This document shows positions 29,984-37,020 of a stretch of DNA of 64,000 bases, piece after piece. Source of the DNA: Bacteroidales bacterium (GTDB taxonomy: Bacteria; Bacteroidota; Bacteroidia; Bacteroidales; UBA932); NCBI GenBank assembly GCA_016287075.1, contig JAEEVC010000007.1:58734-122733 (forward strand). The letters run 5' to 3'. The notes below the pieces were generated by a model. The model saw nothing but the letters and a program-made list of their open reading frames with translations, ran no database searches and was not told the origin of the DNA. Both the position numbers and the translations under genes were made by a program. Position 1 is the first letter of the stretch; each line of letters opens with the position of its first letter.

Positions 29984-31054
29984 TCAGAAGCATTTAAGGG
30001 TTTGTGGAAGAGAAGGCCGCAGGAGGTCTTCCTTGTTGACACCCAGGTACTTGGCCTTCGGGTCATAGGGGATGCCGATCCGGTCGAGAAGCGGCTCGAC
30101 GGCAACCTGGTGGAGCTGCAGGCCGAGATCCCACGGGTCATAGCCGAGCACGAGGCCGGCCAGTTCCTCGTAGGTGAGCACCGGGATGCCGAAGCCGTCT
30201 TTCCCGTAGGTCTTGCCGGTCTGCTCGGCGATGAAATACTGCCAGCGGTCCATGAAATAAGGGCAGCCGGGGCAGTTGGTGACGATCGCCTGGATGCCGT
30301 ACGGCTCCATGGACTCGAATTTCTTGTGGGTATTGGACACGCAGTAGCCCCGGTTGGCCTTCACGTGATACTGGCGGAAGCCGTAACCGCAGCAGTGGCG
30401 CCGTTCCGGATAATCGATGATCTGGCCGCCCCAGCTCTCGACCATGCCCGTAAGGACATAGGGATACTCGGCACCGCCGACGCCCTTGCTCGGGAACATC
30501 TTGGCATAATGGCAGCCGATATGCTCGGCAATCCGCAGGGGCTCGCCCGTGTCCTTGTCCACCAGGCGGAATTTCGCCTTTTCGGCGATCTGGTTGCGCC
30601 AGTGGTAGATCAGGTCGCTGGTATGGGCGAGGTATTTCGGCTTCTTGAATTCCCGCCGGGTCGCCTTCCAGAGTTGCTCGCGGATGCGCGCCTCCAGTTC
30701 GGGGAACTCGTGCCAGGTCTCCAGGACCTCGGCATAGTTGCCGAACGAGGTGATGCAGCTGGCGGCGTAATTCTCATAGCCCGCTTCGGTCATCAGGGCG
30801 AACTGGCGCGCGACGATGGTCATGGCCGTTTCCTGCGGAAGCGTGTCGCAGTGATAGGCGATGCCACCGCAGGTGGTATGGTAGGGCGTCTCATAGACAT
30901 CTTTTCCCAGGACGTTCCGGGTGATTTCCGTGAACATCCGTTCGCTGGCGGGGAAGAAATTCTGCCGGATGCAGCTGCGGACGAAGTACCAGTGGTCGTC
31001 CGGAATCTCCTTCTGGTAATCTTTCCAGATTTTCTGCTTCCCTTCGTAGATCAT
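29984..31054 (-). CDS. HdrB-like CCG-domain subunit
   Basis: The 356-aa product has a complete CCG module in its second half: HIGCHYAKMFP, RRHCCGYGFRQYH and TNCPGCPYFMDRW. This is the CX(n)CCX(n)CXXC pattern that holds the non-cubane [4Fe-4S] clusters of HdrB. The first half has a more degenerate module (TTCGGIAYHC...ASCITSFGNY), so possibly only one catalytic cluster is built in the usual way. It overlaps the HdrC-like gene by 4 bp. It should be the site of disulfide (or analogous) reduction or formation in the complex. Confidence 0.85.
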   Translation of the reverse strand: MIYEGKQKIWKDYQKEIPDDHWYFVRSCIRQNFFPASERMFTEITRNVLGKDVYETPYHTTCGGIAYHCDTLPQETAMTIVARQFALMTEAGYENYAASCITSFGNYAEVLETWHEFPELEARIREQLWKATRREFKKPKYLAHTSDLIYHWRNQIAEKAKFRLVDKDTGEPLRIAEHIGCHYAKMFPSKGVGGAEYPYVLTGMVESWGGQIIDYPERRHCCGYGFRQYHVKANRGYCVSNTHKKFESMEPYGIQAIVTNCPGCPYFMDRWQYFIAEQTGKTYGKDGFGIPVLTYEELAGLVLGYDPWDLGLQLHQVAVEPLLDRIGIPYDPKAKYLGVNKEDLLRPSLPQTLKCF

Positions 31055-31746
31055 TCGTTGAAATGTTTGTCCGAGCTGTATTCAAATGCCTGTCTCTCAT
31101 ATTCTTCCATGCTCATCCCCATCTCCCTGGCCTTGGCGGCGGAGTATTCCTCCACGAGTCGGATGCGCTCGGTCGCACCGGTGACGTCGAAGATGGCCTT
31201 GAGTTCGTCCAGCGACGCCTGCGGGATTTTCCGCAGGACGCCCGGTCCCTCGCCCTTGTAATTGGCCCCCTGGCGGGCCAGGCTCTGCTCCAGATGCTCC
31301 GTGTGCCATTTCCAGACGGGGCCGGATTCCATGTGGTCCTCCCAGCGGAAGGTCTCCGGATGGACGCAGTAGCCGTAGTTCAGGATGTTGCGGGCGAAGG
31401 TATGGGTGAGCGGGAGGATCTGGCGTCCCTTTTCCGATTCGGTGAAATACCCGAGGCGGATGCTCAGGTCGCGAAGCGCCATGATCACGAGCCCGGGGCC
31501 GTTCCTGCGGGGACAGCGGGTCACGCAGCTCATGCACTCGCCGCAGTACCAGATGGTATCGGAACGGAGGAGCGCCTCGATTTCGGCATCGTCGCGGGTC
31601 TGGACGATGGCGACGATCTTGCGCGGGTCGTAGCGGTAGAATTCCGCCGCGGGGCAGACGGCCGTGCAGGTCCCGCAGTTGATGCAGGTGTGGTAGCCTT
31701 CGCGGAAGCGGTAGTCTTTTTCCAGTTCTTCGAAAAGGTGGTCCAT
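31051..31746 (-). CDS. HdrC-like [4Fe-4S] subunit (long)
   Basis: The 231-aa product has two cluster motifs in its first half, CINCGTCTAVCPAAEF and CGECMSCVTRCPRR, followed by a ~130-residue helical tail with no motif I recognise. It pairs with the overlapping HdrB-like gene (4 bp), as HdrC and HdrB do in methanogens and sulfate reducers. It is the second Fe-S transfer subunit of this operon, beside the 105-aa one. It starts 3 nt after the SDR gene. Confidence 0.85.
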   Translation of the reverse strand: MDHLFEELEKDYRFREGYHTCINCGTCTAVCPAAEFYRYDPRKIVAIVQTRDDAEIEALLRSDTIWYCGECMSCVTRCPRRNGPGLVIMALRDLSIRLGYFTESEKGRQILPLTHTFARNILNYGYCVHPETFRWEDHMESGPVWKWHTEHLEQSLARQGANYKGEGPGVLRKIPQASLDELKAIFDVTGATERIRLVEEYSAAKAREMGMSMEEYERQAFEYSSDKHFNE

Positions 31747-33647: not shown

Positions 33648-34202
33648 TTATTTTTCCGACCGGACCTCGAAAATCCCGTTCCGGTCCCAGGAACTCCAGT
33701 ACCGGAGGGCGAGCGAGCGGACGTAGGCCCAGTATTCCGGACTGTGTCCATACCGCTCGACGCCGGTACGGATGTCCGTTTCGATTTGGGTCCGGTATTG
33801 CTCTTTCAGGCTGAGCGTCAAGGTCTTGCCTTCGCAGGTGAAAGTGGCCTCCGGACAGGGGGTATCGATTTCGGCGACCCGGATGAGGCCGTGCCCGAGG
33901 GTGGCGCCGGTGCTGATCTGGAGTCCGTCGTTCAGGCAGCTGACGGGCGGCCGGAGTCCGGCGTGCGATACGACGGAGACAGGATGGTCATGGCCCGGAC
34001 CGCCGAAGAGTTCACGGGCGCGCAGGCCCATTTTCGCCCCGAGGGTGGAGTAGATGCCGAGGTGACCGTGGATCTCGTTCGTCAGGAGGACGAGTTTCCA
34101 CTCCTCGGGACCGAAACGCCGGATAGCAGTGCCGACGATGCGCTGCACATCGTCGGCATATTGGGTGAGGGGAAAATCGAAGGAACGGAGGACGCCTACC
34201 AT
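33648..34202 (-). CDS. FmdE-like protein
   Basis: The 184-aa product resembles FmdE-family proteins, named after a subunit encoded with methanogen formylmethanofuran dehydrogenase. The N-terminal part has EIHGHLGIYSTLGAKMG, matching the family's HGH-type metal-binding opening. Further on, PPVSCLNDGLQISTGATLGHGLIRV matches the D-x-L-Q-x-x-T-G-x-T-x-G-x-G motif with a conserved Cys. Bacteroidetes do not make methanofuran, so the name is structural only. Its start overlaps the ECF S-component gene by 7 bp, linking it to uptake of an unidentified micronutrient. Confidence 0.72.
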   Translation of the reverse strand: MVGVLRSFDFPLTQYADDVQRIVGTAIRRFGPEEWKLVLLTNEIHGHLGIYSTLGAKMGLRARELFGGPGHDHPVSVVSHAGLRPPVSCLNDGLQISTGATLGHGLIRVAEIDTPCPEATFTCEGKTLTLSLKEQYRTQIETDIRTGVERYGHSPEYWAYVRSLALRYWSSWDRNGIFEVRSEK

Positions 34203-34705
34203 TTCTCAATGGCCTTGAGCAGGAGCCAGCCGCCGAAGACCTGGATCAGGATGCCCGGCCAGCCGATGCGGACGTCCTGCAGTGCATGGAGGAAATTGAA
34301 GTCCATGAGGTATTCGAAGGTCATCCCGACGACCTGGCAGATGAGGACCGCGAGGGCGACGGAAAGGAGGGAGAAGCGCATCTTCTTCCCGATCAGCCCG
34401 GCGGCGACCGCCAGCGTGATGCTCTTGACGAGAATGGCCGGCAGGGAGGCCACGGGCGGCATTCCGAAGAACAGGCAGTTGACCAGCGGGGAGAGCACGG
34501 CCGTCAGCAGACCCACTTTCCAGCCGCACTTGAACGCGCCGATGAGCGTGAAGAAATAGATGGGCAGGAAGATGAGGCCGCCTTTCGGAATCAGGTGGCA
34601 GAGCTGGGGGACGACGATGTTGCCGCAGATGAAAAGGGCGGCGGCAAGATAGGTACGCAGTTCCCTGAAATCGTACTGTTCTCTTTGGATGGTCAGCGTA
34701 TTCAT
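34196..34705 (-). CDS. Predicted ECF transporter S-component
   Basis: The 169-aa membrane protein has five to six hydrophobic segments: FRELRTYLAAALFICGNIVVPQL, then FLPIYFFTLIGAFKCGWKVGLLTAVLSPLVN, then a C-terminal pair. Length and layout, with the small-residue LLTAVLSPLVN-type helix, fit the substrate-binding (S) subunits of energy-coupling-factor vitamin and metal transporters. These work with EcfA/EcfT proteins encoded elsewhere. The substrate cannot be read from the sequence. It is co-transcribed with the overlapping FmdE-like gene. A -7 box (TATCTTTG, 34729-34736) lies 23 nt upstream. Confidence 0.7.
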   Translation of the reverse strand: MNTLTIQREQYDFRELRTYLAAALFICGNIVVPQLCHLIPKGGLIFLPIYFFTLIGAFKCGWKVGLLTAVLSPLVNCLFFGMPPVASLPAILVKSITLAVAAGLIGKKMRFSLLSVALAVLICQVVGMTFEYLMDFNFLHALQDVRIGWPGILIQVFGGWLLLKAIEKW

Positions 34706-34728: not shown

Positions 34729-34736
34729 CAAAGATA
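34729..34736 (-). promoter_or_regulatory. -7 box of the ECF-S/FmdE pair
   Basis: TATCTTTG is a perfect consensus match, 23 nt before the S-component ATG. Confidence 0.6.
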
Positions 34737-34794
34737 ATAAAAAAGATGGAATTCAGAAAAGTCTTCTTTCTTCCCGCTATTCCGGAAAAAAGTG

Positions 34795-34802
34795 TATTTT
34801 TG
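34795..34802 (+). promoter_or_regulatory. -7 box of the type III glutamine synthetase gene
   Basis: TATTTTTG matches TAnnTTTG, 13 nt before ATG 34816. Confidence 0.6.
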
Positions 34803-34815
34803 CAATAATTTAAGA

Positions 34816-37020
34816 ATGGACCGTAAACTATACTCCTGCAGCGATATGGACAGATTCGATTTGGTCAAGGAATCCTTCACCCGGAAGGAGGTGCCCGCCG
34901 AGATTCCGGCGGGAAAGACGTCAGACTGGTACGGCGAACTGGTGTTCGACCGGGCCAAGATGTGCAAGTATCTGGATGCCAATATTCTACAGGATCTGCT
35001 TGCCTGTATTGAAGGTGGCAAGGCGCTGGACCGCAAGACGGCGGACGGGGTTGCCAGGGGCATGAAGGTATGGGCGATGGAACATGGCGTGACCCATGTG
35101 ACCCACTGGTTCCAGCCGCTGACCGAAGGGACGGCCGAGAAACACGACGCCCTGATCGACTATGACGGGAAAGGCGGCGTGATCGAGACCTTTGACGGAT
35201 CGATGCTCGCCCAGCAGGAGCCGGATGCCTCTTCCTTCCCGAGCGGCGGGATCCGGGCCACTTTCGAGGCGCGCGGATATACGGCATGGGACCCGACGTC
35301 CCCGGTCTTCATCCTGGACGATACGCTCTGTATCCCGACCGTGTTCGTCTCCTATACGGGGGAGGCCCTGGATTACAAGACGCCGCTGAAGAAGGCTTTG
35401 AAAGCCGTCGGAGACGCCGCCGTCCCCATCTGCCGCCTCTTCGATCCGGCCGTGTCGAAAGTCTATTCCTACCTGGGCTGGGAGCAGGAGTATTTCCTGG
35501 TGGATGAGGCCCTGTATGCCGCCCGCACGGACCTGATGATCACCGGACGCACCCTTTTCGGCCACAATTCATCCAAGAACCAGCAGCTGGACGACCATTA
35601 TTTCGCGGCCATTCCCGCCCGCGTCGCCGCTTTCATGCGCGACCTCGAGGTGGCCGGGCACCGGCTGGGGATTCCGCTGAAGACCCGTCATAATGAAGTG
35701 GCGCCCAATCAGTTCGAGCTCGCGCCCATCTACGGCGAGACCAACCTCGCCAACGACCAGAACCAGATCGTCATGAACCTGATGGGGCATTTCGCCCGGA
35801 AGCACGGTTTCGTGGTGCTCCTGCACGAGAAGCCGTTCGACGGGGTGAACGGGTCCGGCAAGCACAACAACTGGTCCCTCGGTACGGATACCGGCGTCGC
35901 GTTGCTGGCGCCGGGCAAGGATGCGAAGGGCAATCTCCAGTTCATCACCTTCTTCGTGAATGTCCTTGCGGCCGTGCAGAAGCACAATGCGCTGCTGAAG
36001 GCCTCCATCGCCAGCGCGACCAATGCGCACCGCCTGGGTGCGAACGAAGCGCCGCCGGCCATTGTTTCCGCCTTCCTGGGCCGCACGATGACGGAAGTGC
36101 TGCACAAACTGCTCGAGGTACCTTCCGATACGCCGATCGAAATCGCCGGCAAGAAGGGCAAGACGCTGGGCCTCGTCGAAATCCCGGAGCTTTTCGTGGA
36201 CAATACCGACCGGAACCGGACCTCGCCTTTCGCCTTCACCGGCAACCGTTTCGAGTTCCGCGCCGTCGGTTCCAGCGCCAACTGCGCCGGGGCCATGACG
36301 ACGCTGAACGCGGCCGTTGCCGAACAGCTGCTGGATTTCAAAGTGGCTGTGGACAAGGAAATTGCGGCAGGGAAGCCGACCAACGTGGCCATCATGGATG
36401 TCCTCAAGCCCATCATCCGCTCGGTCCTCGATGTCGTCTGCTTCGACGGCAACGGATACACGGAAGAATGGCGGCAGGAGGCGATCCGCCGCGGGCTCGA
36501 CGTCGAGACCAACGTGCCCAAGATGTTCTGCGAGTTCACCAAGCCGGCGGCCGTGGAAATGTTCACGAAGACCGGCGTCTATTCCGAGAAGGAACTGATC
36601 GCCAGGAATGAGGTGAAGTGGGAGACCTATATCAAGAAGGTCCAGATTGAATCGCGCGTCATGGTCCGCATGGCGCTGAACCACATCGTCCCGGCCGCAC
36701 TGGAATACAAGGCCAGGCTGCTGAAGGAAGTTACGCTTGCGAAGGAACTGTACGGCAACCTGGACAACTGCACGGCGGAAATGACCATTCTCGACGAGAT
36801 CAACCGCTATGTCGAGCAGGTGCGCGTCCGGGCGATTGCGATGAATGATGCGCGCCGGGCTGCCAACATGACGGAAGACATTTACCAGCGTGCCCTGGCC
36901 TATCACGAAATTGCGGAGAGTTTCCCGGGCCTCCGCAGGCCCATCGACAAACTCGAAGAGGTGGTGGACAACCGGATATGGCCGCTGCCGAAGTATCGCG
37001 AGATGCTTTTCATCAGCTAA
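34816..37020 (+). CDS. glnN: Glutamine synthetase, type III
   Basis: The 734-aa cytoplasmic enzyme joins ammonia to glutamate using ATP. The length (~730) and the phrases VNGSGKHNNWSLGTDTGV, NEVAPNQFELAPIY, NRTSPFAFTGNRFEFRAVGSSANCA and FVSYTGEALDYKTPL identify the GSIII class common in Bacteroidetes and cyanobacteria, rather than the ~470-aa GlnA. I chose ATG 34816 (MDRKLYS) because the promoter box lies inside the track's longer form. It is monocistronic, and its TAA lies in the left flank of hairpin-element copy 2. Confidence 0.95.
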   Translation: MDRKLYSCSDMDRFDLVKESFTRKEVPAEIPAGKTSDWYGELVFDRAKMCKYLDANILQDLLACIEGGKALDRKTADGVARGMKVWAMEHGVTHVTHWFQPLTEGTAEKHDALIDYDGKGGVIETFDGSMLAQQEPDASSFPSGGIRATFEARGYTAWDPTSPVFILDDTLCIPTVFVSYTGEALDYKTPLKKALKAVGDAAVPICRLFDPAVSKVYSYLGWEQEYFLVDEALYAARTDLMITGRTLFGHNSSKNQQLDDHYFAAIPARVAAFMRDLEVAGHRLGIPLKTRHNEVAPNQFELAPIYGETNLANDQNQIVMNLMGHFARKHGFVVLLHEKPFDGVNGSGKHNNWSLGTDTGVALLAPGKDAKGNLQFITFFVNVLAAVQKHNALLKASIASATNAHRLGANEAPPAIVSAFLGRTMTEVLHKLLEVPSDTPIEIAGKKGKTLGLVEIPELFVDNTDRNRTSPFAFTGNRFEFRAVGSSANCAGAMTTLNAAVAEQLLDFKVAVDKEIAAGKPTNVAIMDVLKPIIRSVLDVVCFDGNGYTEEWRQEAIRRGLDVETNVPKMFCEFTKPAAVEMFTKTGVYSEKELIARNEVKWETYIKKVQIESRVMVRMALNHIVPAALEYKARLLKEVTLAKELYGNLDNCTAEMTILDEINRYVEQVRVRAIAMNDARRAANMTEDIYQRALAYHEIAESFPGLRRPIDKLEEVVDNRIWPLPKYREMLFIS

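Follow-up and report, generated by a model that had tools for sequence, protein, structure and literature searches.

Structures of the FmdE domain (Pfam PF02663) have been available since 2010, and we know of no role that has been assigned to them. Most PF02663 genes adjoin metal-ion transporters (Axelrod et al., PMC2954224); hence, the metal link of FmdE is not new, and what is added here is a proposed assignment of one FmdE clade to nickel, its fusion to a nucleoside-hydrolase-like domain and its partnership with an S component of ECF transporters. Among the S components, the vitamin-type RibU, ThiT and FolT offer one point of comparison and the NikMN(QO) and CbiMNQO systems another, an N-terminal Met-His motif (MHI) being seen in the NikM/CbiM-like protein of one locus of the order (L117). 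On the side of nickel itself, FrpB4 and FecA3 of H. pylori are NikR-regulated TonB nickel receptors, and in the LarA superfamily LarC is needed for making the nickel-pincer cofactor.

The window, i.e. the whole stretch of 64,000 nucleotides from a Bacteroidales genome that was analysed here, carries an S gene and an FmdE gene with the following features:

34196-34705, minus strand: gene of the predicted ECF S component, a membrane protein of 169 aa from an undescribed Bacteroidales family
33648-34202, minus strand: gene of the FmdE-core metal-binding protein, 184 aa, soluble
34196-34202, minus strand: 7-bp overlap of the two genes, ATGGTAG, in which ATG is the FmdE start and TAG the S stop
34062-34070, minus strand: HGH metal-ligand motif, His45-Gly-His47 of FmdE, invariant in 50 homologues
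33936-33938, minus strand: Cys89 of FmdE, predicted third metal ligand, invariant in 50 homologues
34729-34736, minus strand: predicted -7 element TATCTTTG of the Bacteroidetes type (TAnnTTTG), recognized by its sequence, 24-31 nt ahead of the start of S

The S-FmdE gene pair

Open reading frames and sequence place both genes and their 7-bp overlap exactly where the preliminary description had them. There is no gap between the two genes and a single TAnnTTTG element upstream of S: judging from the sequence, the element at 34729-34736 is the probable promoter of a two-gene operon, and it is plausible that S and FmdE have this promoter in common. The stretch TATATTTG is likewise found upstream of S in two congeneric species (L015 and L016). 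A type III glutamine synthetase gene (34792-37020, plus strand) is divergent from the S gene; therefore, two promoters must fit in the short intergenic region.

The overlap, with S preceding FmdE, recurs in three further species of the genus, where it measures 4 bp (L014) or 7 bp (L015 and L016); across these species the identity to the window is 68-75% for S and 56-59% for FmdE. The genes flanking the pair vary among the three species and the window, which has glutamine synthetase III, glyoxalase-like, SDR and HdrBC-like genes at this place. As the overlap thus recurs with different flanks, the pairing is not due to chance, and together with the single promoter-type element this recurrence makes S-FmdE look like a translationally coupled two-gene operon. 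FmdE has been kept beside S within the genus, as the pairing proposed in the preliminary description requires. In a fifth species (L013) FmdE is present with no adjoining S, and beyond the genus S as a rule lacks an adjoining FmdE. Among the genomes sampled from the order, only three, counting that of the window, have strong matches to both proteins; the separation of S and FmdE into different genomes outside the genus does not amount to a significant avoidance.

Certain minor features of these loci may be recorded. One of the congeneric FmdE copies (L016, 9323-9784) is devoid of the first ~28 residues, retaining all the metal ligands and the 7-bp overlap with S. A few genes downstream of the window's pair are HdrB-/HdrC-like Fe-S genes of the heterodisulfide reductase type (29984-31746, minus strand), with the glyoxalase-like and SDR genes sitting in between. 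A methanofuran role for FmdE was considered and rejected, as the locus is devoid of fmd/fwd genes: formylmethanofuran dehydrogenase subunit E proper would be encoded beside the catalytic fmd/fwd subunits, and no such subunit is found at this locus.

Folds of the two proteins and the FmdE metal site

The window's S protein scores 29.8 bits against PF12822, just below the cut-off of 30.7. Since a search of the PDB sequences with the S profile recovered no solved S component, we used fold comparison instead. The AlphaFold model (pLDDT 86.5) was matched by Foldseek to ThiT, RibU and FolT with a probability of 1.00; against 4tkr, 5kbw and 5jsz the probability is again 1.00, with TM scores of 0.59-0.69, i.e. 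the model has the membrane fold of S components. By this modelled fold, the product of 34196-34705 is an ECF S component. It shares the membrane fold of RibU, ThiT and FolT, but only 14-19% identity, and differs from them in its gene neighbours and in being devoid of a vitamin family or a riboswitch. In this regard, none of 21 S members exceeded the cut-off of an NCBIfam vitamin S family (RibU, BioY, ThiT and others), the best score being 17.1 bits versus a cut-off of 180, and an Rfam search gave no riboswitch, either in the window or in the scanned related loci, where tRNA/tmRNA were the sole matches. Hence, the possibility raised by the preliminary description, that S might fall inside a known vitamin clade with FmdE not conserved beside it, finds no named vitamin family to point to. 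The protein has the ECF logic in common with NikMN(QO) and CbiMNQO; however, it matches none of the CbiM models, and the MHI N-terminus is absent both from it (its N-terminus reads MNTLTIQREQ) and from every other of the 21 S rows.

For FmdE, the match to PF02663 is clear (52.4 bits, E 7e-14, gathering score 22.9). Its AlphaFold model (pLDDT 93), built from a 50-row alignment, has the fold of the FmdE structures 2gvi, 2glz and 3d00 (E 6.5e-9 and TM 0.65 for 2gvi). The HGH motif and the conserved Cys that had been attributed to the protein are both present: His45, His47 and Cys89, along with Asp92 and Glu34, are invariant in the alignment of 50 sequences. Cys89 aligns to the solved 2gvi, and the trio His45/His47/Cys89 corresponds to His15/His17/Cys55 of 2glz, whose metal site held a Zn/Ni mixture (PMC2954224); the fourth ligand of 2glz, Cys19, is replaced by Gly49 in the window's protein. 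Thus, the latter keeps the alpha+beta core, the His-x-His and the distant Cys of PF02663. Unlike the rest of the family, it is encoded by a gene that overlaps an ECF S gene, and it has relatives with a secreted nucleoside-hydrolase-like domain as their fusion partner. It is a core-only protein with no apparent signal peptide and no Cys-rich C-terminus, i.e. the C-terminal zinc finger found in a subset of PF02663 is absent. The FmdE tree does not settle the point at which the window's clade joins.

Genomic neighbourhoods of the FmdE and S families

FmdE homologues at 38-59% identity are present in ~52 of 344 genomes sampled from the order. Most of these copies form the C-terminal half of a ~490-aa protein (PF01156 + PF02663), the N-terminal part of which comprises a signal-like sequence and a nucleoside-hydrolase-like half; of 18 fusions checked for the DxDxxxDD signature, 12 match it. 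Such secreted fusions of an inosine-uridine nucleoside hydrolase-like domain to FmdE are exemplified by L020 (7254-8738) and L021 (9109-10551) and seen at ~35 more loci, often adjoining a TonB receptor gene. In the literature we found no paper that names FmdE together with a nucleoside hydrolase.

A count over 49 FmdE loci, extending up to 6 kb, recovered one TonB-receptor subfamily at 19 of them, NikR at eight (~0.07 expected, P ~1e-14) and His-rich UreH-like permeases at eight. A NikM/CbiM-like gene is found at a single locus (L117), directly beside a TonB receptor-hydrolase-FmdE array, and Hyp plus [NiFe]-hydrogenase genes at two. At these two (L109 and L118), a stand-alone FmdE adjoins HypF/HypC/HypD/HypE and the genes of both [NiFe]-hydrogenase subunits; both genomes carry the S cluster too, which in one of them (G415) lies on the same contig ~9 kb off. 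Further, a palindrome GTGTYAY-N13-RTRACAC occurs just upstream of nikR at three loci (L099, L103 and L117) and just upstream of the TonB receptor-FmdE genes at another (L110), with a chance expectation of 0.00-0.01 per locus, as computed for two of the loci; it resembles the NikR type of palindrome in other lineages. At the level of whole genomes, NikR is present in 24 of 45 FmdE-bearing members of the order versus 1-2 of 14 others (P 0.002-0.013), and [NiFe] hydrogenase in ~21 of 45 versus 2 of 14 (P 0.06). From the latter count we discounted PF00374 matches of ~400 aa that cover only the first ~70 positions, which are presumably NuoD-like proteins of respiratory complex I.

Relatives of the window's FmdE are thus found beside NikR, a nickel permease or [NiFe] genes, i.e. 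in the company expected of a nickel system, and this context gives FmdE, hitherto linked to 'some metal', a nickel hypothesis that can be tested. The arrangement is reminiscent of H. pylori FrpB4/FecA3 in that a nikR gene and a palindrome of the NikR type occur at Bacteroidales TonB receptor-FmdE operons; however, the Bacteroidales receptor is a separate subfamily and is not found in the window's genome. Elsewhere in the order nikR lies ~1-3 kb from larC in three genomes (G043:C56, G401:C16 and G038:C26), and by this proximity NikR is linked to nickel-pincer cofactor synthesis.

S homologues were detected in 42 of the 344 genomes sampled from the order and in 18 of 250 from the family. A count over 57 S loci, extending up to 6.5 kb, found at least one member of a recurring neighbour set at 54 of them: polyferredoxin (38 loci), DUF362 (27), the same TonB-receptor subfamily as at the FmdE loci (26), DUF1893 of the TM1506 family (23), a Tat-type aldo/keto reductase (21) and a phosphoribosyltransferase (20). 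NikR was found within 6.5 kb of S at none of the 57. Within the window's family but outside its genus, the receptor is present in 8 of 10 S-bearing genomes versus 1 of 20 others (P 6e-5). The two families hence associate separately with one receptor subfamily, pointing to a convergence by separate routes. What emerges is a widespread, unnamed Bacteroidales family of ECF S components tied to a single TonB-receptor subfamily and to a LarA-clan protein. For the most part, the genomes that bear it showed none of the nickel genes that were sought. Among the less common arrangements, the gene that separates S from the TonB receptor codes for a SAM methyltransferase at two loci (L181, 777-1361; L184, 8522-9103), in the place of the phosphoribosyltransferase or DUF1893, and a His-rich cation-efflux (CDF-like) gene adjoins an S-type TonB receptor and an aldo/keto reductase at a third (L210, 302-1270).

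In the window's own genome, the assembly of which is 97.7% complete, a search that covered NikR, [NiFe] hydrogenase, LarA and LarC found none of these markers; hence, no nickel user is known in it. This absence is not fatal to a nickel-based reading, since organisms with nickel transporters yet no known nickel enzyme have been described (Zhang et al. 2009, PMC2667541). EcfA/EcfT did not turn up in the 595 kb covered (21% of the 2.87-Mb genome), where a motif search gave no candidate for EcfT; this decides nothing.

Candidate cargoes of the pair

The neighbourhoods of the two families direct attention to nickel, or a compound of it, for both halves of the pair, and suggest that both belong to a previously undescribed nickel uptake and handling system. 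In the reading that we prefer, and which we regard as close to an even call, S imports a nickel complex and a cytosolic FmdE accepts the metal. Should the window's version act as those of its relatives do, S would bind, in the periplasm, a nickel complex or a small molecule that bears nickel, and would carry it inwards with EcfA/EcfT, assuming a shared ECF module. FmdE, translated from the S message by translational coupling, would then take the metal or the complex in the cytosol via His45, His47 and Cys89 and either pass it on or strip it of its ligand. Among related Bacteroidales, a dedicated TonB receptor would take the cargo across the outer membrane and the secreted nucleoside-hydrolase-like/FmdE fusion would handle it in the periplasm, with the inner-membrane step left to a UreH-like permease, a NikM-like transporter or the S family. 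The preliminary description had proposed that the pair takes up and handles a metal or a metal-containing cofactor. This fits the comparative evidence and is narrowed towards nickel by the NikR, NikM-like, UreH-like and Hyp/[NiFe] genes that adjoin the FmdE clade; its limits lie in the rarity of S beside FmdE outside the genus and in the missing marker nickel genes of the window's genome.

An unlikely but by no means fanciful alternative is that the cargo imported by S is a vitamin or nucleobase-like cofactor free of metal (pterin-, deazapurine- or nicotinate-like), FmdE being a metal-dependent processing enzyme rather than a metal chaperone. FmdE, the phosphoribosyltransferase and DUF1893 would then be alternative cytosolic enzymes that process the cargo, consistent with one or the other of them standing beside S depending on the species (the phosphoribosyltransferase at 20 and DUF1893 at 23 of the 57 loci). 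The phosphoribosyltransferase and DUF1893 contexts fit an organic, nucleobase-like cargo, as does the fusion of FmdE elsewhere to a nucleoside-hydrolase-like domain, and the S fold itself resembles that of vitamin-type S components. However, such a cargo leaves the NikR, UreH-like permease, NikM and hydrogenase genes beside FmdE unexplained, and the S loci scanned have neither a riboswitch nor a named vitamin S family. A variant in the form of a queuosine route, with a QueT-like transporter and a nucleoside hydrolase, was tried and set aside, there being no direct support for it.

We deem it improbable that the window's family handles another transition metal, such as cobalt or zinc, with the nickel role confined to the NikR-bearing relatives. 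The solved FmdE proteins bound mostly Zn (PMC2954224), the window's genome has none of the nickel markers sought, and the CDF-like gene of L210 is another hint in this direction; against this, the clearly assigned neighbours of the FmdE clade are nickel genes, and no B12- or zinc-specific gene was noticed beside the pair in the loci that were read.

A more elaborate proposal, to which we give a slim chance, is the salvage of a nickel-pincer-type nucleotide cofactor or its base: the receptor would take it in, the hydrolase remove the ribose, S import the product, the phosphoribosyltransferase rebuild it, FmdE handle the nickel and DUF362 use it. By the same token, there is but a small likelihood that Bacteroidales unable to make a pincer-type cofactor salvage it from their surroundings and that the pair in the window represents a reduced version of such a pathway. 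We know of no free pincer cofactor in the environment. The proposal draws on DUF362, which belongs to the LarA clan (Pfam CL0471; PMC11770544). The members beside S display a His, a Lys ten residues on and a His 13-16 further, which line up with the LarA nickel-pincer motif. One of them scores E 1.6e-4 against Lar_N, just under the cut-off, and in the PDB a LarA-like pincer enzyme (E 0.96) was the sole match with E up to 10. The case is built on clan membership in Pfam, the motif spacing and this sub-cut-off Lar_N score; the hhalign comparison of the DUF362 and LarA profiles is weak (E 0.016), being too shallow to convince, and a pincer cofactor in DUF362 is a prediction. Thus, DUF362 near the S relatives keeps the pincer-motif spacing, yet it is not LarA. 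LarC was looked for in 53 S-bearing genomes and found in none, so that the DUF362 proteins there either have no such cofactor or are supplied with it from outside. Moreover, DUF362 does not adjoin the window's pair. Lipoprotein-like DUF362 proteins with a LarA-type HxMxGFGGAxK...H are encoded close to a TonB receptor and an S gene at three loci (L153, 7039-8037; L160, 7152-8135; L178, 5176-6165).

Finally, that S and FmdE are unrelated neighbours overlapping by accident is barely credible: they do lie mostly apart outside the genus and L013 has an FmdE with no adjoining S, but the overlap is kept in four species with different flanks and each of the two families associates on its own with one TonB-receptor subfamily.
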